This document shows positions 1,442-40,548 of a stretch of 64,000 nt of DNA, piece after piece. Position 1 is the stretch's first letter. Every line of letters starts with the position of its first letter. Under the pieces are notes generated by a model. It was not told the origin of the DNA, ran no database searches, and was given only the letters and a program-made list of their open reading frames with translations. Both the position numbers and the translations under genes were made by a program. The DNA comes from Candidatus Peribacteria bacterium RIFOXYB1_FULL_54_35 (GTDB lineage: Bacteria > Patescibacteriota > Gracilibacteria > Peribacterales > Peribacteraceae), in NCBI GenBank assembly GCA_001787755.1, contig MFYJ01000011.1, forward strand, positions 124,001-188,000, written 5' to 3'.

Positions 1442-3040
1442 ATGCCTGAGGACGTTTCCCTGACCGGAAAGAGGTGGCTGCCTCCTGAAAAGAGCGGCCA
1501 GACTGCGGGCGACGCCATTGCGTATCTGCTCCACTCTCGGAAGCTCGATATTTCCGTTTCCCCCCCTGTCTTCCCACACATGGAACAGGCGGTGGAACGT
1601 ATCTTTGCGGCAGTGAAACGCAGAGAACGCATTGCTATCTTTGGCGACTACGACTGCGACGGCATCACTGCAACCGCACAGCTGGTTCGCTTCTTCCGGC
1701 GAAGAGGACTAGATCCTCTCATCCGTCTCCCTCACCGCGTGCACGACGGGTACGGCCTGAACACGGCCATCGTGGAAGAATTCCATAGGGCAGGAATACA
1801 ACTCCTCATTACTGTGGACAACGGCATCTCTGCGGTACAGGAAATTGCGCTCGCGAAGCAGTACGGGATGGAAACGATTGTGACAGACCACCACACCGTG
1901 GGAACAGAAATCCCTCCGGCAAGCATCATTCTGCACCCGGAACTTGCCGGGTGTCCCGGGCCGCACCCTTCCGGTGCAGGCGTAGTGTTCCTCCTTCTCC
2001 AGGCACTGGAGAAAGGCACATGGGAAGAAGAGCCCATCGATCTTGTCCTCGCCATGTGCGGCACTGTCGCCGATCTTGTGGAATTGCGTGGGTACAACCG
2101 CCAGCTTGTACGGGAAGGGCTCACAGCACTCCGGAACCTCTCCGCAGGGCCACTCATGCTCCTGCGGGAGTATACAGGGACCCGTACGAGCACAGATGTC
2201 GCTTTCCGGCTTGCACCACGCATAAATGCAGCAGGACGCTTGGGGGACCCTCTGCTGGCCCTCCAGGCCCTCCTGGAAGGAGGGGAGGCCATCGGGGAAC
2301 TCGATGCACTTAATACGAGCCGTCAGCAGCAGACACAGGACCTCTACAGAGAGATACGACATTCCCTCGATGAGAGCTCACCGTTGCTTTTCTCGGCGGA
2401 TACAACATATCCACACGGACTCATTGGCCTCATTGCCGGCAAGCTCACTGAAGCAACCGGAAAGCCCAGTTGTATCGTGACTGTGAGCGGTGATGAGTGC
2501 ATTGCTTCTCTGCGCAGCCCCCCTTGCTACCACATTACACAGGGGCTCGTACGTTGCTCGGAGTTGCTCTCACGCTTTGGGGGACATGCATGCGCTGCAG
2601 GGTGCAACTTTCCCCTGCGGAACATGACGGCATTTGAACGGCAGCTCACATCCGACATTGCGCAGCACACGCAAAAACAAGATCTCCAACCGTTCCTCCA
2701 GGTCGATGCAACGATCCCACCGGCAGACATCACCCTGGATCTCTGTGCCGCACTGGAAACGCTGGAACCGTTTGGAGCGGGGAACCCTGAGCCACGCTTT
2801 CTCCTTGAGGGGGTGCACCTTGAGGGAGCACGCACCGTCGGTGCAGAGAACACTCATTTGCAATGTTCTGTTGCCGGGAGAAAATCCATTGGATTTCACC
2901 TCGCCCCATTGCTCAGTAAGCTTGATGCGCCACTCGATGTGCTCTGCCGTCTGCAGATAGACAGCTGGAATGGGTACAGGCAGCCGCAACTCATCATTGA
3001 TGATGTGCGTGTAACAAAAAGAGCACCTGTGAGCTTGTAG
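1442..3040 (+). CDS. recJ: Single-stranded-DNA-specific exonuclease RecJ
   Basis: 5'-3' single-strand DNA exonuclease of the DHH phosphoesterase family, used in recombination and repair. Its metal-site motifs are in order: GDYDCDG (about residues 68-74), TVDNG, VTDHH (DHH motif), NAAGRLG, and the DHHA1 signature GGHACAAG near residue 385, followed by the C-terminal OB-like domain. At 532 residues it is near the usual length. The ATG at 1442 was chosen because a purine-rich AGGGTGG lies 8 bases upstream; TTG at 1406 and GTG at 1430 are in-frame alternatives. The TAG stop lies inside the left arm of an inverted repeat shared with the convergent XRE gene. Confidence 0.93.
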   Translation: MPEDVSLTGKRWLPPEKSGQTAGDAIAYLLHSRKLDISVSPPVFPHMEQAVERIFAAVKRRERIAIFGDYDCDGITATAQLVRFFRRRGLDPLIRLPHRVHDGYGLNTAIVEEFHRAGIQLLITVDNGISAVQEIALAKQYGMETIVTDHHTVGTEIPPASIILHPELAGCPGPHPSGAGVVFLLLQALEKGTWEEEPIDLVLAMCGTVADLVELRGYNRQLVREGLTALRNLSAGPLMLLREYTGTRTSTDVAFRLAPRINAAGRLGDPLLALQALLEGGEAIGELDALNTSRQQQTQDLYREIRHSLDESSPLLFSADTTYPHGLIGLIAGKLTEATGKPSCIVTVSGDECIASLRSPPCYHITQGLVRCSELLSRFGGHACAAGCNFPLRNMTAFERQLTSDIAQHTQKQDLQPFLQVDATIPPADITLDLCAALETLEPFGAGNPEPRFLLEGVHLEGARTVGAENTHLQCSVAGRKSIGFHLAPLLSKLDAPLDVLCRLQIDSWNGYRQPQLIIDDVRVTKRAPVSL

Positions 3041-3161
3041 TTTGTAGCCGGTAGTTTGTAGGAAGCTTTAAAACCTAAAACTATCAAACTTCATACATCC
3101 TTTCATCTTCAATAGAGACCTTAAAACTTGCGACAAGCTACAAACTACCGGCTACAAGCTC
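3031..3161. terminator. Inverted repeat at convergent recJ / XRE ends
   Basis: The left arm (3031-3061) includes the recJ stop codon. The right arm (3138-3161) is its inverted copy, except that the left arm carries an extra 7-base duplication (TTTGTAG). The loop is about 76 bases and AT-rich. Its place between convergent genes suggests a bidirectional terminator or mRNA 3'-end protector rather than a coding element. Confidence 0.5.
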
Positions 3162-3165
3162 GTCA

Positions 3166-3390
3166 TCACACAGGCACCAGGTTTCCCTCCATTTGGAATA
3201 CTGTCGTCACGCTCTCATCGAGGGCTGCAGCGATCTTGTATGCCAGCAGCACTGAAGGATTCGTCTGGCCGCGTTCTATGCTCATAATTGTCTGACGACT
3301 CACGCCGGTGCGCAGCGCGAGTTCCTCCTGCGTCATGCCTCTATCGAAACGCAGCTTGCGAATAGTGTTTTTGAGAACGGGACCAGCCAT
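3166..3390 (-). CDS. Small XRE-family helix-turn-helix regulator
   Basis: A 74-residue stand-alone HTH_3 (Cro/C1-type) DNA-binding protein. Residues 9-64 form the five-helix fold: KLRFDRGMTQEELALRTGVS holds the first helices, and SRQTIMSIERGQTNPS is the recognition helix plus the conserved ERG-x-x-NPS turn. It resembles the short YozG-like regulators often found alone. No partner toxin or membrane gene is adjacent, so its target is unknown. It lies about 100 bp downstream of uppP on the same strand but has its own candidate promoter at 3425-3452. Confidence 0.9.
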   Translation of the reverse strand: MAGPVLKNTIRKLRFDRGMTQEELALRTGVSRQTIMSIERGQTNPSVLLAYKIAAALDESVTTVFQMEGNLVPV

Positions 3391-3424
3391 GGGAGTGGGG
3401 AAGAATTCAGTAACAGGTTCGGGA

Positions 3425-3452
3425 ATACTACTGACACTTCGGAAATGTTCAA
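3425..3452 (-). promoter_or_regulatory. Candidate promoter of the XRE regulator
   Basis: On the minus strand TTGAAC (3447-3452) and TAGTAT (3425-3430) are 16 bases apart, about 35 bases before the ATG at 3390. The match is moderate. Confidence 0.4.
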
Positions 3453-3489
3453 GCAGAAAAATAAAGACTTAGAAATTTCTTGAGCAAAA

Positions 3490-4281
3490 TCATATGCCCC
3501 GCGCAAGCAAGAGCACACTTATTACAACAAGATACCAGGAAAACCACGCAAGACTGTGCTGTGTGACAAAAGAACGCAGGAAGCGAATAGCGAGAATACT
3601 CGCAACGAAAGAGCTCACAAATCCGACAACTATGATCCCCGCAGCGGGCAATGCCACTGTACCTGCAAGAAGATGCCACAGGGAAACTCCTGTTGCTCCT
3701 GCGATGATAGGAACCGCGAGGAGGAAAGAAAAATCGAGAGCGTCTCTCCTTGTCGTATGGAACAGGCGGGCAGCGGAAATGGTGCACCCCGAACGCGAGA
3801 GACCCGGCACAAGCGCACATGCCTGCGCAAGACCGATGACGAGAGCCCGGCTCCCGGTGAGATGTTCCGCCTGCCGGCTCTGTTCCGAACGTTCCCCCAG
3901 CAGAAGCACAGCGGCAGTAACGAGGAATGCGAGAACCACAGCCAGAGGCGAACTCAGTTTCTGTGCGATCACATCCTCAAAAGCGAGCCCCGCAAGAGCC
4001 CCCGGAACAGTGGCGATGATCAGTAAGATGAGCAGGCGCCGGTACGTTGCATCTCCTGTGAAAGGGGAGAGAAGGAGCTTCCTCCACTCCGTGAAATAGC
4101 AGAGAACAAGCGCAAGGAGCGTGCCTGCATGGAGGAGCACATTGAATCCCAGCATGCTCAGCGGATCAATCTCCATATCAAAGAAGGACTCAGCGAGAAT
4201 CAGATGCCCGGAACTGGAGACAGGCAGGAGCTCCGTGAGCCCCTGCAGCACGCCGAGGATAAAGGCCTGGAGAGATGTCAT
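3490..4281 (-). CDS. uppP: Undecaprenyl-diphosphate phosphatase (BacA/UppP)
   Basis: Membrane phosphatase that recycles undecaprenyl pyrophosphate to the monophosphate lipid carrier used for peptidoglycan and surface-glycan export. The 263 residues match the family length. The two signature segments are present: GLTELLPVSSSGHLIL near residues 14-29, with the catalytic glutamate and the PVSSSGH motif, and PGLSRSGCTISAARL near residue 160, with the conserved PGxSRSG arginine. Seven to eight hydrophobic helices are evident. It starts at ATG 4281, divergent from the DedA gene, with 168 bp between them. Confidence 0.95.
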   Translation of the reverse strand: MTSLQAFILGVLQGLTELLPVSSSGHLILAESFFDMEIDPLSMLGFNVLLHAGTLLALVLCYFTEWRKLLLSPFTGDATYRRLLILLIIATVPGALAGLAFEDVIAQKLSSPLAVVLAFLVTAAVLLLGERSEQSRQAEHLTGSRALVIGLAQACALVPGLSRSGCTISAARLFHTTRRDALDFSFLLAVPIIAGATGVSLWHLLAGTVALPAAGIIVVGFVSSFVASILAIRFLRSFVTQHSLAWFSWYLVVISVLLLARGI

Positions 4282-31660: not shown

Positions 31661-31747
31661 GCACGGCAGTGTTTTCCTGCGTGAGCATGAGGAAAGAGCA
31701 GAGCTACGAATTGTTCGGAGATGCCTGAAAAACACTGCCGTGCCTAG
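31657..31747. terminator. Perfect 19-bp inverted repeat at convergent pyrF / SLH ends
   Basis: CTAGGCACGGCAGTGTTTT (31657-31675) and its exact inverse (31729-31747) contain the stop codons of both convergent genes. The 53-base loop has no gene. It is probably a bidirectional terminator. Confidence 0.65.
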
Positions 31748-33369
31748 TACCGCCAGACCCTCCCCTCCGCGACGGGGGCAGGGGACTCTATCCACTGGTA
31801 ATCAGCGGAACCGTCTGTCCAGCGCACATCTCCGCTCTCGCTGAGAGATCCTGGAACTTCCAAATTCACCTGCAGTGTATCCCCGTGTGAAGCCTGTGAA
31901 AGGTCCACATCGCCGTAGAGATCCAGTATTCCCAGCCTCCCCAGCTCCTCGGGAATGGCAAAACAGTCGACGAGACTCAGTTCTTGGGAATCTGACTCTT
32001 CCGTGTTACAGGCGTAGCGGCGTTCTGTTCCTTCCCCCCGCAATTCCCAATTTGTGACCCGGATACCCGGCGCATTATGCACATGAAAACGGAGATGACG
32101 TACCCGGAAATCAGCCACCGGATCTTTCTCCGTCTCAAAGAGGAAAGACGCAAAATGTTTCCCGGCACCCTGGTCGAGACTTCCCGTACTGCTCAGAAGA
32201 TTTTCTACCCGCGTAATGCGTGCCTGCACGGTTTGGTGCGCAGGGTAGTGCGCGCTCGCCGGAACAATCTGGTACTGCACTGTTGGATCAACTACTTCTC
32301 CGACCATCACAAACATCTTTTTCACTTTAACCCATTCTTCAGAAAAACCCCTCTCGTGAAGCCTCCTCAGTTGTGCCTGTAACACAAACGTGCTTCCTGT
32401 GCGCTCGGAAAGTATGAGACCGCTCTGTCCCGGCTCAAACGAGACAATCCATGTTTCATCGTCCCGGTCGTACACATCCAGCTTGAGTTTGGCGATTTCT
32501 TTCCCACTTCCGGTAAAGAGATAGATACCCGAGAGTGTGCGGGCTTCCCTTTCCAGAGTGACTTTGACGATGCGCAGCTCAACCGGATTCTCGCGCGTAA
32601 AAAGCTGAAAATCCGCAATGGGCCCCCTTTGGCCCACCATAAGAAAGCTGCTTTTTACAGGAACAAGACTCTCCTTTCGCGGAGAAGGGGGAAGTGGCTC
32701 CTCTTCCTCCGGCTCAGGCTCTGCTTCTTCTGAGACAACAACATCCTCACCACGCTCCGCGCGCCTGTAGTAGTTTAATTCCCCTTCATACTCCGCACGG
32801 AACGCTGCAGCCAGTCGCGCCATCTGCCCCCGCGTGAGGTAGCGGTCATATGCCAGATTCACCGGGAGGGCTGTTCTGTGGTTTTGTGCCGCCTGTACAT
32901 AGATCTCAAACCACTCTGCATCCGCATCTGCATACGCGGTGTAGGCGTACAGCTCCCCCAGCATCTTCAGGGCCTCAGCATAGTTCACCGGATTCTCCGG
33001 ACGGAAGAATCCATCGGGATACCCGGAAACAACACCGCGCTTCTTCGCGAGACACACGTACCTCGAGAACCAATCCTCTTCACGGACATCCGGGAAACAC
33101 CCCGACGCATCGGAGAGGGAAACAACAATCCGTGGGTAACTCGCGAGAGCAATTTTGAGAAATTCCGCCCTGTTGAGGGTGCGCCGCGGCTGAAAGGTGC
33201 CATCGGGGTTCCCCTCTACGGCGCCAATAGTCGTAAGTACACTGATACCCGCCGCCTCCGCAGGCAGGAATGGGGCATCTAAGTACATCAGACTCTGGTC
33301 CCGATAGTCGAGTGCCTGTGCTCCCAGAGGAATGAGGAACGCACCGAGAGTGATGAGCAGCCGTCGCAT
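31744..33369 (-). CDS. Exported SLH-domain surface protein
   Basis: A 541-residue secreted protein likely bound non-covalently to the wall. Signal peptide RRLLITLGAFLIPLGAQAL (cleavage near residue 18). Two clear S-layer-homology domains: about residues 40-80 (LTTIGAVEGNPDGTFQPRRT-LNRAEFLK) and about 95-140 (CFPDVREEDWFSRYVCLAKK, GVVSGYPDGFFRPENPVNYAEALKML), then a weaker third repeat to about 185. An acidic proline linker (EPEPEEEEPLPP) precedes a beta-rich C-terminal region of unknown role, with two late cysteine-containing loops. A TATACT box lies 7 bases before the ATG at 33369. Confidence 0.9.
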   Translation of the reverse strand: MRRLLITLGAFLIPLGAQALDYRDQSLMYLDAPFLPAEAAGISVLTTIGAVEGNPDGTFQPRRTLNRAEFLKIALASYPRIVVSLSDASGCFPDVREEDWFSRYVCLAKKRGVVSGYPDGFFRPENPVNYAEALKMLGELYAYTAYADADAEWFEIYVQAAQNHRTALPVNLAYDRYLTRGQMARLAAAFRAEYEGELNYYRRAERGEDVVVSEEAEPEPEEEEPLPPSPRKESLVPVKSSFLMVGQRGPIADFQLFTRENPVELRIVKVTLEREARTLSGIYLFTGSGKEIAKLKLDVYDRDDETWIVSFEPGQSGLILSERTGSTFVLQAQLRRLHERGFSEEWVKVKKMFVMVGEVVDPTVQYQIVPASAHYPAHQTVQARITRVENLLSSTGSLDQGAGKHFASFLFETEKDPVADFRVRHLRFHVHNAPGIRVTNWELRGEGTERRYACNTEESDSQELSLVDCFAIPEELGRLGILDLYGDVDLSQASHGDTLQVNLEVPGSLSESGDVRWTDGSADYQWIESPAPVAEGRVWRY

Positions 33370-33376
33370 CGGCGAC

Positions 33377-33382
33377 AGTATA
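33377..33382 (-). promoter_or_regulatory. TATACT -10 of the SLH gene, leaderless spacing
   Basis: On the minus strand TATACT (33377-33382) ends 7 bases before the ATG at 33369. Confidence 0.5.
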
Positions 33383-33475
33383 ATAGTCAATACAGAAGAG
33401 AAACAGGGTTCTTCGAATCACATGATTCGACATATTTTATGCTGGTTTTTGTTTTACGGAGGCCAAAACAGTAGA

Positions 33476-36859: not shown

Positions 36860-36895
36860 CACTGTTTCACTTGATGCTGAAACGGTGGTTTTTTT
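36860..36895 (+). terminator. Intrinsic terminator in the nusA leader (candidate attenuator)
   Basis: CACTGTTTCA (36860-36869) pairs with TGAAACGGTG (36878-36887) around an 8-base loop, with one G-T pair. Seven T's follow at 36889-36895. It lies between the promoter and the nusA start, and no other plus-strand gene ends here, so it looks like an attenuator. Confidence 0.75.
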
Positions 36896-36929
36896 CCTTT
36901 CACAGTTCCACTTTCTACCACCCCTCGTC

Positions 36930-38225
36930 ATGCGTGCATCATTCATAGCCGCAATCAACCAGATTTGTTCGGAGAAGAACGTAAGTCCCGAACAGGTGCT
37001 GGACGCTATCAGGCAGGCCATAGCAACTGCCTACCGTAAAGATTTTGGGAACCGTGAGCAGGAAATCCGCGTGGAGCTTGAAGAGGGCAAAGACATGCCT
37101 ACCATCCTCCTTGTGAAGGAAATTGTGGAAGAGGTGGAAAACGATAATTTCGAAATCAGCATCAAAGATGCGAGGAAGATTAAAAAGGATGCGGATGTCG
37201 GCGATGAAATTGAGATTGATGTTACCCCTTCAGGATACGGCCGTATCGCTGCACAGGCAGCAAAACAAGTCATTCTGCAAAAACTGCAGGAGGCAGAGAA
37301 ACAGAGCTTGTACGAAATGTTCAAGGACCGCGAGGAGGAACTGCTCACCGCCACAGTCACAAAGGTGGAACCAAACTGGGTGACACTTGAAATCGAAGGA
37401 ATGACCGTAAGTCTCCCCTGGAAAGAGCAAATACCGGGCGAGCACTACTACACAGGAAAGCGCATCCGTGTGTACCTTGATAAGGTGGAGCTCACAGGGA
37501 AAGGGCCACAGCTGCGCATCTCCCGCACACACCACGGCCTCGTACGCAAACTCCTCGAGCTGGAGATCCCGGAAGTGCGCAACTGTGATGTCGAAATAAA
37601 AGCCATTGCCCGCGATCCTGGTTTCCGCAGCAAAGTCGCCGTTGCAAGTACCGACCCGCGGATTGATCCCATTGGAGCATGCGTGGGACAGAAGGGCGTA
37701 CGCATCCAGGCAGTGATGGAGGAACTCAATGGGGAGCGTGTTGATATGATTGAGTGGTCCGATGACCCTATCCGCCTCATTTCCACCGCGTTACAACCGG
37801 CAGCTATTTCCGCTGTCATCATCGTGAATGACACAGAGAATCTCGATGAAGAAGGGAGGCGCATCAAAAGGCGCGCCGCCGTCTTTGTGGAAGAAGCCCA
37901 GCGTCCCATGGCTATAGGGAAAAAAGGGCAGAACATCCGCCTGGCTACTGAGCTTTCCGGCTACGAATTGGACATGTACAACTATGAGGAATTGCCTGCC
38001 TTTAAAGCAAAACTAGCAGAGCTCACGGGCTCCGATGCACTCAAAATGCAGGGAATGACCCCAGAACAGCCTGCAGAAGGAGCCGTCCCGGACAAGAAGG
38101 CCGCCGCAGGGAAAGAAGTTGCAGAGGAAAAACCTGAGAAAGAAAAAGAAGCGAGCGGAGAACCAGAGGCAACAAAGGAGAAAGAAGATACCGGTGAGAC
38201 AAAGGAGGATGGAAAGAAAGAATAA
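36930..38225 (+). CDS. nusA: Transcription termination/antitermination protein NusA
   Basis: RNA-polymerase-binding elongation factor that promotes pausing and intrinsic termination. 431 residues from MRASFIAAINQICSEKNVSP. N-terminal domain (about 1-125), S1 domain (about 130-200, LTATVTKVEPNWVTLEIEG), then KH1 and KH2 (about 220-345: DPRIDPIGACVGQKGVRIQA and RPMAIGKKGQNIRLATELSG, with GxxG loops). The final 70 or so residues are a Lys/Glu-rich disordered tail not found in all NusA proteins. Because NusA strengthens intrinsic terminators, the terminator in its own leader suggests autoregulation. Confidence 0.95.
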   Translation: MRASFIAAINQICSEKNVSPEQVLDAIRQAIATAYRKDFGNREQEIRVELEEGKDMPTILLVKEIVEEVENDNFEISIKDARKIKKDADVGDEIEIDVTPSGYGRIAAQAAKQVILQKLQEAEKQSLYEMFKDREEELLTATVTKVEPNWVTLEIEGMTVSLPWKEQIPGEHYYTGKRIRVYLDKVELTGKGPQLRISRTHHGLVRKLLELEIPEVRNCDVEIKAIARDPGFRSKVAVASTDPRIDPIGACVGQKGVRIQAVMEELNGERVDMIEWSDDPIRLISTALQPAAISAVIIVNDTENLDEEGRRIKRRAAVFVEEAQRPMAIGKKGQNIRLATELSGYELDMYNYEELPAFKAKLAELTGSDALKMQGMTPEQPAEGAVPDKKAAAGKEVAEEKPEKEKEASGEPEATKEKEDTGETKEDGKKE

Positions 38226-38277
38226 TTCGGCAAGAAATACCATGTCCCGATGGTAGCGAGAGCGCTACCATCGGTTC

Positions 38278-40548
38278 ATGCAACTTCCGGGCATCCCCCT
38301 TGTTGTTCTCGACACGGAAACGACCGGCCTTCTCCCGCGCGTGAACAGGATCATTGAATTCGCATCCGTCTTGCTGAGGGACGGAGTGATGCAGGATGAA
38401 TATGAACAGCTCATTTTTGTGGAAGAAGCGATTCCGCCGCATGTAGAAGTACTTACGCGCATCAAAACAGCAGACCTCCAGGGGAAGCCACGATTGGAGG
38501 ATGTGCGCGGAGATATTTTGAAGCACATAGACAAAGATGCCATCATCGTCGGGCAGAACATCACCTATGACATGGAAATGCTCAAGGGAGAAGGAATCGA
38601 CCTCAGCGGTCGCCCATGGATTGATACTTCCATGCTCGCTTCGCTCGTATTCCCGGAGTTCGAGAGTTACTCGCTCGGGTACATGAGTACCGTCCTCTCA
38701 CTGAACCATGAACCAATGCACCGCGCACTCGGGGATGTGCACGCCACAGTGGAACTCTTGAGCAGATGCTGGGAACGCATGCTCATGCTTCCCAGAGAAC
38801 TGCAGATGCAGGCACAGGATATTATGCGGAGAGCACCAGAAGGATACAGACGCTTCTTTGGGGCACTGCCCGCTCCTCACACAGACACCAAACCAGTGTG
38901 GTTGCACATGGGAACAGATACAACCACTGGGAACGGCAATGCTATCCGTGGCGTCACTCTCACTAAACCAAGCGGCAGCGTGGCACTTCTGGAAGAACCA
39001 GCATCTCCAGGAGTATTGGAAATAGTGATGCGCGCTGCAGTAGCAGACAGCAACACTGTCCACTGGCTCGCGGTGAAAAACCTCGAAATGACCACAAAGA
39101 AACTCACATTACCGGAGGGTGTACGCATTTTGTTCCCGCCGTACCTCCTCCTGGACCCCGAGGCCGGAACAAAGTTTATTCACCAGGAATCCTTCACGGC
39201 AAACGAGGCAACACTTGCCCTCAAGCTACTCTGGTACACACCAGAAACCCAGAGCGATCTCCCATTGCACGGCGATGAAGTGACTGTATGGAATGGCAAA
39301 CTCGCCTGTACGGAAGAGTCTGCGGCGTACACCAGGCAGTTTTTAAATCCCCCAGGTGTTCTCCTGCTGGATCACCGCCAGCTTCTCTCTTTCATTGCAG
39401 ACCCAAAACATACAGGACACAATGCGCTCACGACACAGGCACATATCGTCATTGATGATGCTTCTATGTTGGAAGACACCGCTACGAAAGCATACGAGTG
39501 GTACTGCCCGCTCCCGCATCTTCGTGCAGCCGCAGAGGGAAACGAAATACTCACAAAACTTGCGGATATAACCGAACTCTGGGCTGAACGGACAAGGGGC
39601 AACCAGGATCTCCATTACCTCACAGTGAGCGACCTTCAGAATCCTGACGCCCGGGGCATGCGTGACCTGCTTGATGAGGCGCTGCAGAACCCCGACCTCC
39701 CGCGGCTCGCCCTGCGCTACCTCTCCCACCTGCAGCAGATCCTCCGTCCAGAAAACCTCAAAGACCGCATTGTGTACATTGAACTGCGCTACAGCGGAGA
39801 TTTGCATATCCATTCCGCACCCGAACAAATCGGCATCTTCCTCCAGCGCCATCTCTACGATGTATTCCCCACCACGCTCCTCGTGCCGCCCGGCAGTGCC
39901 AACACCCTGAAAGAGGTGCTTCCTGCAGGGACTAAAACAGCCATACAACCAGCTATCCAGGCTGCGATTCCCTTCGAGATTTTGTACCCCGAACATCTGA
40001 ATCTCAATGAACTCATCACCACCACCCCTGAAGGAAAAACTATTGTTCTCATGAGCAGCAAACGAAGTATTGATGATGTGTATATTAAACATGCTGAAGC
40101 GCTGGAAAAACGCGGTATCTCCCTCATCTGCCAGGGCCTGTGTGGGGGAGCTGGACGGATGCGAGCCAATTTCATTGCCGCCCAAAGCCCTGCACTCTGG
40201 TTCCTGACACCATGGGCGTTTGAAGGAATTACACTCCCAGCCAATACCGCAGATCGGTTGGTTCTGTTCAGTCTCCCCTTCGATCACCCTTCTCATGCCG
40301 TTCTCAGCAAACGTGCCGAACACTACCAGAATGCCTTCATGCAGTACTCGCTCGCGCGGCTGCAGCACAGGCTCTTCCGGCTGCTTCGGGCATTCAGCGG
40401 ATACTGCAAAGAAGGGGCAGAGGTGCTCCTACTCGATGACAGATTGCACACCAAAAACTACGGAAAAGATATCCTTGCGTACCTTTCTCAATTCAGAAGT
40501 GATGCAGGAACCGATCCGTCTCGCTCTGCCCAGGTCACTCTTTTTTAA
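38278..40548 (+). CDS. DEDDh exonuclease fused to a degenerate DinG-like helicase
   Basis: A 756-residue protein. Residues 1-175 form a DnaQ/epsilon-type 3'-5' exonuclease: VVLDTETTGL (Exo I), NITYDMEML (Exo II), HRALGDVHAT (Exo III with the H and D). The rest resembles DinG/XPD family helicases: HIVIDDASML in the DEAH position, and a C-terminal PALWFLTPWAFEGITLPANT, LVLFSLPFDHPSH, LARLQHRLFRLLRAF. No Walker A (GxGKT) is found where the helicase domain begins, and DEAH is changed to DDAS. The helicase part may therefore be structural. It starts 52 bp after nusA. Confidence 0.82.
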   Translation: MQLPGIPLVVLDTETTGLLPRVNRIIEFASVLLRDGVMQDEYEQLIFVEEAIPPHVEVLTRIKTADLQGKPRLEDVRGDILKHIDKDAIIVGQNITYDMEMLKGEGIDLSGRPWIDTSMLASLVFPEFESYSLGYMSTVLSLNHEPMHRALGDVHATVELLSRCWERMLMLPRELQMQAQDIMRRAPEGYRRFFGALPAPHTDTKPVWLHMGTDTTTGNGNAIRGVTLTKPSGSVALLEEPASPGVLEIVMRAAVADSNTVHWLAVKNLEMTTKKLTLPEGVRILFPPYLLLDPEAGTKFIHQESFTANEATLALKLLWYTPETQSDLPLHGDEVTVWNGKLACTEESAAYTRQFLNPPGVLLLDHRQLLSFIADPKHTGHNALTTQAHIVIDDASMLEDTATKAYEWYCPLPHLRAAAEGNEILTKLADITELWAERTRGNQDLHYLTVSDLQNPDARGMRDLLDEALQNPDLPRLALRYLSHLQQILRPENLKDRIVYIELRYSGDLHIHSAPEQIGIFLQRHLYDVFPTTLLVPPGSANTLKEVLPAGTKTAIQPAIQAAIPFEILYPEHLNLNELITTTPEGKTIVLMSSKRSIDDVYIKHAEALEKRGISLICQGLCGGAGRMRANFIAAQSPALWFLTPWAFEGITLPANTADRLVLFSLPFDHPSHAVLSKRAEHYQNAFMQYSLARLQHRLFRLLRAFSGYCKEGAEVLLLDDRLHTKNYGKDILAYLSQFRSDAGTDPSRSAQVTLF

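Follow-up and report, generated by a model that had tools for sequence, protein, structure and literature searches.

An exonuclease-DinG fusion protein with a motor-dead helicase fold in Patescibacteria

What a DinG-type helicase fold is kept for once the ATP site of its motor has gone is the question raised by a gene at positions 38278-40548 (+ strand) of the window, by which we mean the whole stretch of 64,000 nucleotides under analysis. Reading from ATG to TAA, this gene encodes a protein of 756 amino acids in which a DEDDh exonuclease is followed by a motor-dead DinG/XPD helicase fold; in the accessible parts of the literature the importance of the motor in exonuclease-DinG proteins is disputed. 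We hold it to be probable, at roughly two chances in three, that the protein acts as an ATP-independent, probably clamp-tethered 3'-5' exonuclease whose former motor serves as a passive holder of single-stranded DNA (ssDNA).

Domain architecture and loss of the ATP site

The DEDDh 3'-5' exonuclease domain covers residues 9-161 (38302-38760, +; Pfam RNase_T, 1.3e-22), and its catalytic letters D12, E14, D98, H148 and D153 are all in place. The same letters occupy these five columns in 123/123 aligned proteins, so that the intact DEDDh residues reported in the preliminary description of this DNA are borne out. The exonuclease domains of DnaQ and PolC share the fold and the residues with the window protein but have no DinG helicase fold. 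Further downstream, Pfam recognizes Helicase_C_2, that is, motor domain 2 (MD2), in residues 579-738 (40012-40491, +) at 8.3e-9, above its cut-off. The best NCBIfam match, TIGR01407 (DnaQ exonuclease/DinG helicase family), scored 155.2 bits, which does not reach the curated cut-off of 547.7, and in a sequence search of the PDB the DinG of Staphylococcus aureus (SaDinG) ranked second with the single protein and first with the family profile. Intact relatives have longer inserts, the medians being 187 residues from motif I to II and 278 from II to IV, against 155 and 198. A four-cysteine FeS cluster was not found in the 33 aligned family sequences, where cysteine reaches at least 50% in four scattered columns only (164, 344, 410 and 618); some known ExoDinGs also lack the cluster, according to the available text of PMC12345164.

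An AlphaFold model of the window protein, built from the 33-sequence family alignment, had a mean pLDDT of 89.6 and a pTM of 0.85. Foldseek placed SaDinG first (E 1.1e-32), followed by E. coli DinG and CasDinG, and a comparison with 9ii8 (SaDinG) by VIA-align gave a Z of 26.2 over 686 residues with an rmsd of 9.9, a high value for the whole chain, so that the placement of the domains may differ from that in SaDinG. For a second model, that of a motor-dead protein of family f18 (pLDDT 87.6), SaDinG was again the top match, with a Z of 24.2. Profile-profile comparison of the family with intact relatives reached a probability of 100 and an E of 3.6e-75 over 713 columns, with DDAS facing DEAH. Two of the checks proposed in the preliminary description, profile-profile alignment and structure prediction, have thus been run and both recover the DinG fold, closest to that of SaDinG, in agreement with its view of a DinG-like motor that lacks an ATP site.

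Where the window protein reads LLEEPASPGVLE at the motif I (Walker A) position, alignment and model place EEPASPGVL (residues 239-247; 38992-39018, +), which is no P-loop. The register here depends on the method, the intact P-loop facing a gap of the family in hhalign and EEPASPGVL in MAFFT, and neither alignment shows GK[ST]. The model has a strand (235-239), a loop (240-245) and a helix (246-256) at motif I, again with no GK[ST]. The sole GK[ST] of the protein, residues 586-588, is not a P-loop, since it stands at the start of an MD2 strand (587-591) and not after a strand. At the motif II position, DDAS (residues 393-396; 39454-39465, +) replaces DEAH. Further on, TPWAFEG (residues 644-650; 40207-40227, +) is a remnant of motif V in which T644, P645, W646 and E649 are invariant in 33/33 sequences. 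The C-terminal DinG motifs had been called partly readable, which holds for motif V, half kept in the family as TPW.(F/Y)E, but not for motif VI (QGxGRxIR), which is lost; what survives best in this part are the DNA contacts described below. Since the ATP-binding motifs I, II and VI are absent, we file the window protein as a motor-dead variant of ExoDinG and not as a helicase.

The loss extends to the whole family of the window protein (f1). All 33 aligned full-length orthologs lack Walker A and carry D394 and S396 where DEAH would stand, and the same was true of 35/35 once two further orthologs had joined, which upholds the earlier observation of a missing Walker A and of DDAS at the DEAH position. 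The 123-protein alignment comprises these 35 proteins, 50 motor-dead ones that represent 17 further families of the class, and 38 intact ones; 33 of the latter belong to five families of the same class, and the other five are named full-length ExoDinGs of Coriobacteriia. The set was a chosen one and not a random one, so its counts are not frequencies. Grouping was by family and followed a motif search, which partly builds in the following contrast at the ATP site; the DNA-contact columns played no part in it. Rows dropped were L023 (stop inside), L036, L037 and L039 (contig fragments), L070 and L078 (duplicates), and L117 and L127 (no exonuclease motif seen in the frame). The Walker A lysine is present in 0/35 family proteins, 3/50 other motor-dead and 38/38 intact ones, the motif II glutamate in 0/35, 20/50 and 38/38, the motif II histidine in 0/35, 3/50 and 38/38, and the motif VI arginine (column 705) in 0/35, 12/50 and 38/38. 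All four of Walker A Lys, Walker A Ser/Thr, motif II Asp and motif II Glu are combined in 0/35, 0/50 and 38/38. It is very improbable that ATP use by the helicase fold persists by way of a non-canonical site: an Asp does stand at the first DEAH position, a magnesium ligand in a working motor, in 31 of the 35 family proteins (29 of 33 in the smaller set, with T or S in the others), and the strand-loop-helix shape at motif I survives in the model, but the Walker A lysine is missing throughout, its Ser/Thr ligand is found in 1/35, the motif I loop is not glycine-rich across the family, and Glu to Asp, His to Ser and replacement of the motif VI Arg are each seen in 35/35.

A P-loop in the correct position of a structural model had been named beforehand as the finding that would speak against a lost ATP site; it was looked for and is absent. 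A pattern search of the 85 motor-dead proteins turned up P-loop-like strings in six of the family, of which five lie near residue 580-586 and one at 179; no family member has one at motif I, so that a cryptic P-loop was rejected. Outside the family the search found such strings in three dead proteins, L045 (f4), L043 (f2) and L111 (f6). In the last two they align with residues 254-262, before the motif Ia strand, and L043 has a second one that aligns with 428-435, in each case away from motif I. Only in f4 does a near P-loop stand in the correct place, reading GIGNGKY with CEAH or CEAD at motif II in 3/3 proteins (L045, L123 and L124), apparently a half-way stage of motor loss.

DNA-contact residues and the C-terminal motif

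In SaDinG, as described in the available text of PMC12345164, MD2 accommodates seven ssDNA bases and the exonuclease four, and ssDNA binding is weakened most by K801A, F804A and F823A and moderately by R858A and Y864A. Residues 778-880 of SaDinG align without gaps with residues 642-744 of the window protein, and the family profile agrees. By this alignment F668 (40279-40281) is the equivalent of F804, F687 (40336-40338) of F823, R722 (40441-40443) of R858 and Y728 (40459-40461) of Y864, all on the + strand, so that four MD2 contacts are identical in the two proteins. The stretch with the MD1 DNA contacts of SaDinG aligned at -2.8 bits only with the family profile, below mapping, and the mapped contacts are those of MD2. 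All four residues are identical in 35/35 family proteins. Among the 50 other dead proteins, position 668 is F in 50, position 687 aromatic in 50, position 722 R in 44 and K in 2, and position 728 aromatic in 42 with a gap in 8; F, aromatic, R/K and aromatic come together in 38/50, as in 38/38 intact proteins, at least one of the four sites being missing in 12/50. The kept residues support the suggestion, made in the preliminary description, that the former motor may have a structural or DNA-clamping role. What counts against a holder of ssDNA is the fifth contact, K801, which is not retained in the family: its equivalent is S665 here, and S, A or T is found in 30/35 family proteins, with K or R in 44/50 of the other dead ones. 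The conserved F, R and Y could also serve the fold alone.

The family has in addition kept DDASMLEDTATK (residues 393-404; 39454-39489), which begins with DDAS and is nearly fixed, D394, S396, L398, E399 and A402 being invariant in 33 sequences. That this part of MD1 has been so strongly retained after losing its ATP role is what would be expected of a new contact surface, and could mean that the dead helicase is a docking platform that recruits a separate motor or the replisome and does not itself hold DNA. A tail that fits the clamp motif would also suit a docking platform. We nevertheless regard this explanation as decidedly doubtful, given that the family, like most other dead proteins, retains the DNA-contact residues and that no partner gene was found, in a cross-family comparison covering the upstream neighbour only.

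The tail in question ends in QVTLF (40531-40545, +), within residues 742-756 that are modelled with low confidence (pLDDT below 50). It fits the strict sliding-clamp motif Q-phi-x-[L/M]-[F/L] given in the accessible part of PMC11139829, which, with phi as L, I, V, M or A, fits 28/35 family proteins. A relaxed end, Q..[LMIF][FLWM], is present in 33/35 family proteins and in 0/88 other relatives, with an expectation of about 0.7% from composition, and among the 59 non-overlapping open reading frames of the window it occurs once, in this gene. The two family proteins that lack it are L003 and L126. In L003, a close relative, at 1501-3726, identity to L004 is 59% in MD2 and 75% in the exonuclease, and a frame error near the end is possible. 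DnaE of the same genome carries QTDLF at residue 920 of its open frame. We consider the C-terminal motif a likely, predicted sliding-clamp binding site, a role that an accessible flexible tail would fit. The other dead families examined have no clamp motif, and a clamp tether therefore cannot be the general role of such proteins.

Known DinG proteins and the proposed mode of action

SaDinG (8ZEF/9II8; PMC12345164, available text) has, like the window protein, a DEDDh exonuclease followed in the same order by a DinG motor fold, but it is an enzyme with working ATPase and 5'-3' helicase activity whereas the window protein is without motifs I, II and VI, and it has 897 amino acids against the 756 of the window protein with its clamp motif at the tail end. 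Since crosslink resistance in S. aureus requires both the nuclease and the ATPase of DinG (PMC12345164, same text), a motor-dead form must act in a different biological role. E. coli DinG (6FWR/6FWS) shares the DinG fold, and a predicted clamp motif, QLDLF, has been reported for it (PMC12525004, accessible part); unlike the window protein it has no exonuclease domain, and it carries an FeS cluster and is an active helicase. In the accessible parts of the respective reports, B. subtilis DinG K290A degrades ssDNA (PMC12525004) and Listeria DinG E465A keeps its activity (PMC12774634), so that the 3'-5' exonuclease of the B. subtilis and L. monocytogenes proteins works with the ATP site mutated in the laboratory. 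The natural forms of these two proteins keep their ATP motifs, whereas the loss in the lineage of the window protein is natural and fixed. By analogy, the natural loss would leave a working 3'-5' exonuclease, and these published DinGs lend the suggested DNA-clamping role further backing.

A survey of DinG-like proteins in 192 bacterial orders distinguishes ten groups, including ExoDinG and pExoDinG (PMC11981726). The latter resembles the window protein in being a DinG fusion with one catalytically dead half, but there the exonuclease is predicted to be dead and the helicase is thought to be intact; in the window protein we see the reverse, so that the two are mirror images. As far as the accessible text of the survey goes, its ten groups hold no class for a motor-dead ExoDinG, and the words Patescibacteria, CPR, Walker and degenerate are absent from its main text. 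Among the matches listed from the open-licence part of PMC, we noticed no motor-dead ExoDinG.

The mode of action that we propose would combine these elements as follows. The DEDDh domain would degrade single strands in the 3'-5' direction with metal ions and without need of ATP, and the helicase fold (MD1, the shortened middle inserts and MD2) would neither bind nor hydrolyse ATP any more. The groove of MD2 would hold the strand passively, which may add affinity and restrict digestion to unpaired ends, and the flexible tail of the family with its QxxLF-type end would serve as a tether to the DnaN sliding clamp, bringing the enzyme to sites of replication or repair. Candidate substrates are ssDNA, flaps, or RNA in hybrids.

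Selection, distribution and genomic surroundings

All 35 other genomes of the family that were searched match the gene, G003 and G034 in pieces only. Counting our own, 34 loci have the full gene, and 33 of these were aligned, L023 being left out for an in-frame TGA stop. Helicase_C_2 matches were found in 56 of the 58 family genomes, singly in 55 and with a second, partial match in G439, and nearly all lie within open frames of the expected length. Across the 33 sequences 84 columns are invariant, 41 of them from residue 200 on. We determined dN/dS by the Nei-Gojobori method, domain by domain, in 12 pairs (L209 and L210 were used for this only). Pairs among L020, L209 and L210 of the family gave 0.11-0.12 in MD1, 0.07-0.10 in MD2 and 0.06-0.11 in the exonuclease, and the family pair L034/L125 gave 0.05-0.08, but at a dS of at least 1.8; the pair L003/L004 was saturated. 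In the helicase halves of other dead pairs the values were 0.03-0.13 for f18 and f4 and up to 0.22 for f7, and intact pairs lay at 0.01-0.09. Both dead helicase halves are under purifying selection. A decaying relic or a sequencing artefact is extremely improbable: the in-frame TGA of L023 and the low likeness of the tailless L003 to L004 in MD2 would agree with it, but 33 uninterrupted full-length family frames, the spread of the Helicase_C_2 match over the family genomes, the low dN/dS in both halves and the invariant columns speak against it. Judged from these sequences, motor loss is a trait of the lineage and not chance or one faulty sequence.

Motor loss is also seen beyond the family. 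TIGR01407 had some match in 186 of 193 genomes of the class, above cut-off in 5, and a profile made from 18 dead proteins matched 129 of 240 genomes of the phylum, own class included, many of them in the exonuclease part only. In two families of the class TGA codes for glycine, as seen for 80 of 88 such codons at conserved columns, and code table 25, which has the same assignment, points to Gracilibacteria and hence to Patescibacteria. From other classes 31 of the best or longest matches were picked and 30 used, L257 (a 429-aa piece) being dropped. The exonuclease letters are intact in all 30 of these chosen proteins, and the motor motifs are lost in 26 and kept in 4 (f45 and f37), among which L238 ends inside motif VI. 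Of the 26, 22 have F at both 668 and 687 and 24 have R or K at 722. Half-eroded P-loops occur in five of the 26 (L230, L231, L232, L234 and L235, from f69, f30, f58 and f84), for example AGPGVGRY with DEAQ, and may show motor decay caught at different stages.

The trees, all weakened by long branches, leave the number of losses between one and several. In the full-protein tree (93 rows) the dead proteins of the class group together with an SH-aLRT of 89; the exonuclease-only tree needs 5 changes, and the AU test does not reject one clade (p-AU 0.10); a wider tree without the motif columns needs 1 change, with a support of 8 (79 rows, without L254, L256, L260, L261, most family f1 rows and some others). 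We put forward as a tentative picture, held at somewhat under even odds, that many lineages of Patescibacteria, in perhaps several separate events, converted DinG from an ATP-driven helicase into a passive holder of single strands, with eroded P-loops recording the stages, and that the window's family rebuilt its ATP site into DDASMLEDTATK, newly fixed, and made the enzyme a clamp-tied, ATP-free 3'-5' exonuclease. Whole lineages that shed the ATP site while nuclease and grip on DNA were retained would represent a natural separation of the two functions, and many natural enzymes predicted to be ATPase-dead become available for comparison. The label "ATP-dependent helicase DinG" would be wrong for the motor-dead proteins.

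The gene lies downstream of nusA (36885-38225, +; Pfam), its conserved neighbour, which is found in 31 of the 33 upstream flanks of the family, several of these flanks being cut by the locus end. A -10-like box, TACCAT (38266-38271, +), stands 12 nt before the ATG and is conserved across family loci: TANNNT occurs within -16 to -11 in 32/33 loci, with 24 counts at -12, against a mean of 2.4 and a maximum of 7 in 1000 shuffles. Shine-Dalgarno-like letters were seen in 3/33 loci only. The gene probably has its own promoter just after nusA and is transcribed into a leaderless mRNA.

These surroundings bear on the possibility that the main substrate is RNA, the enzyme trimming either rRNA or the RNA strand of RNA-DNA hybrids while its helicase fold holds the RNA, which we regard as rather unlikely. 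The position of nusA directly upstream and the absence of an RNB-domain match from the same genome would suit it, as would published reports, in their accessible parts, that Listeria DinG removes unprocessed rRNA by a nuclease independent of the DEAH motif (PMC12774634) and that the DinG of B. subtilis digests the RNA of hybrids (PMC12525004); the Listeria protein, however, prefers DNA in vitro (PMC12774634), PNPase is present in the same genome, the clamp motif points towards DNA, and with a probable promoter of its own the gene need not share the role of nusA. RNB nucleases, XseA (ExoVII) and MutS1 had no match in the same genome at E 0.001, and the window protein is likely a dedicated 3'-5' exonuclease, perhaps clamp-bound, of this poorly understood bacterial group.

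A perfect 11-bp inverted repeat with an AGAG loop (38248-38273, +) lies over the -10-like box and is a possible operator or terminator. As a conserved hairpin before the gene it was rejected, being perfect at the window's own locus only and partial in L004; the box is the conserved part. Elsewhere in the window, Pfam recognizes an S-layer homology domain protein at 31747-33390 (-).
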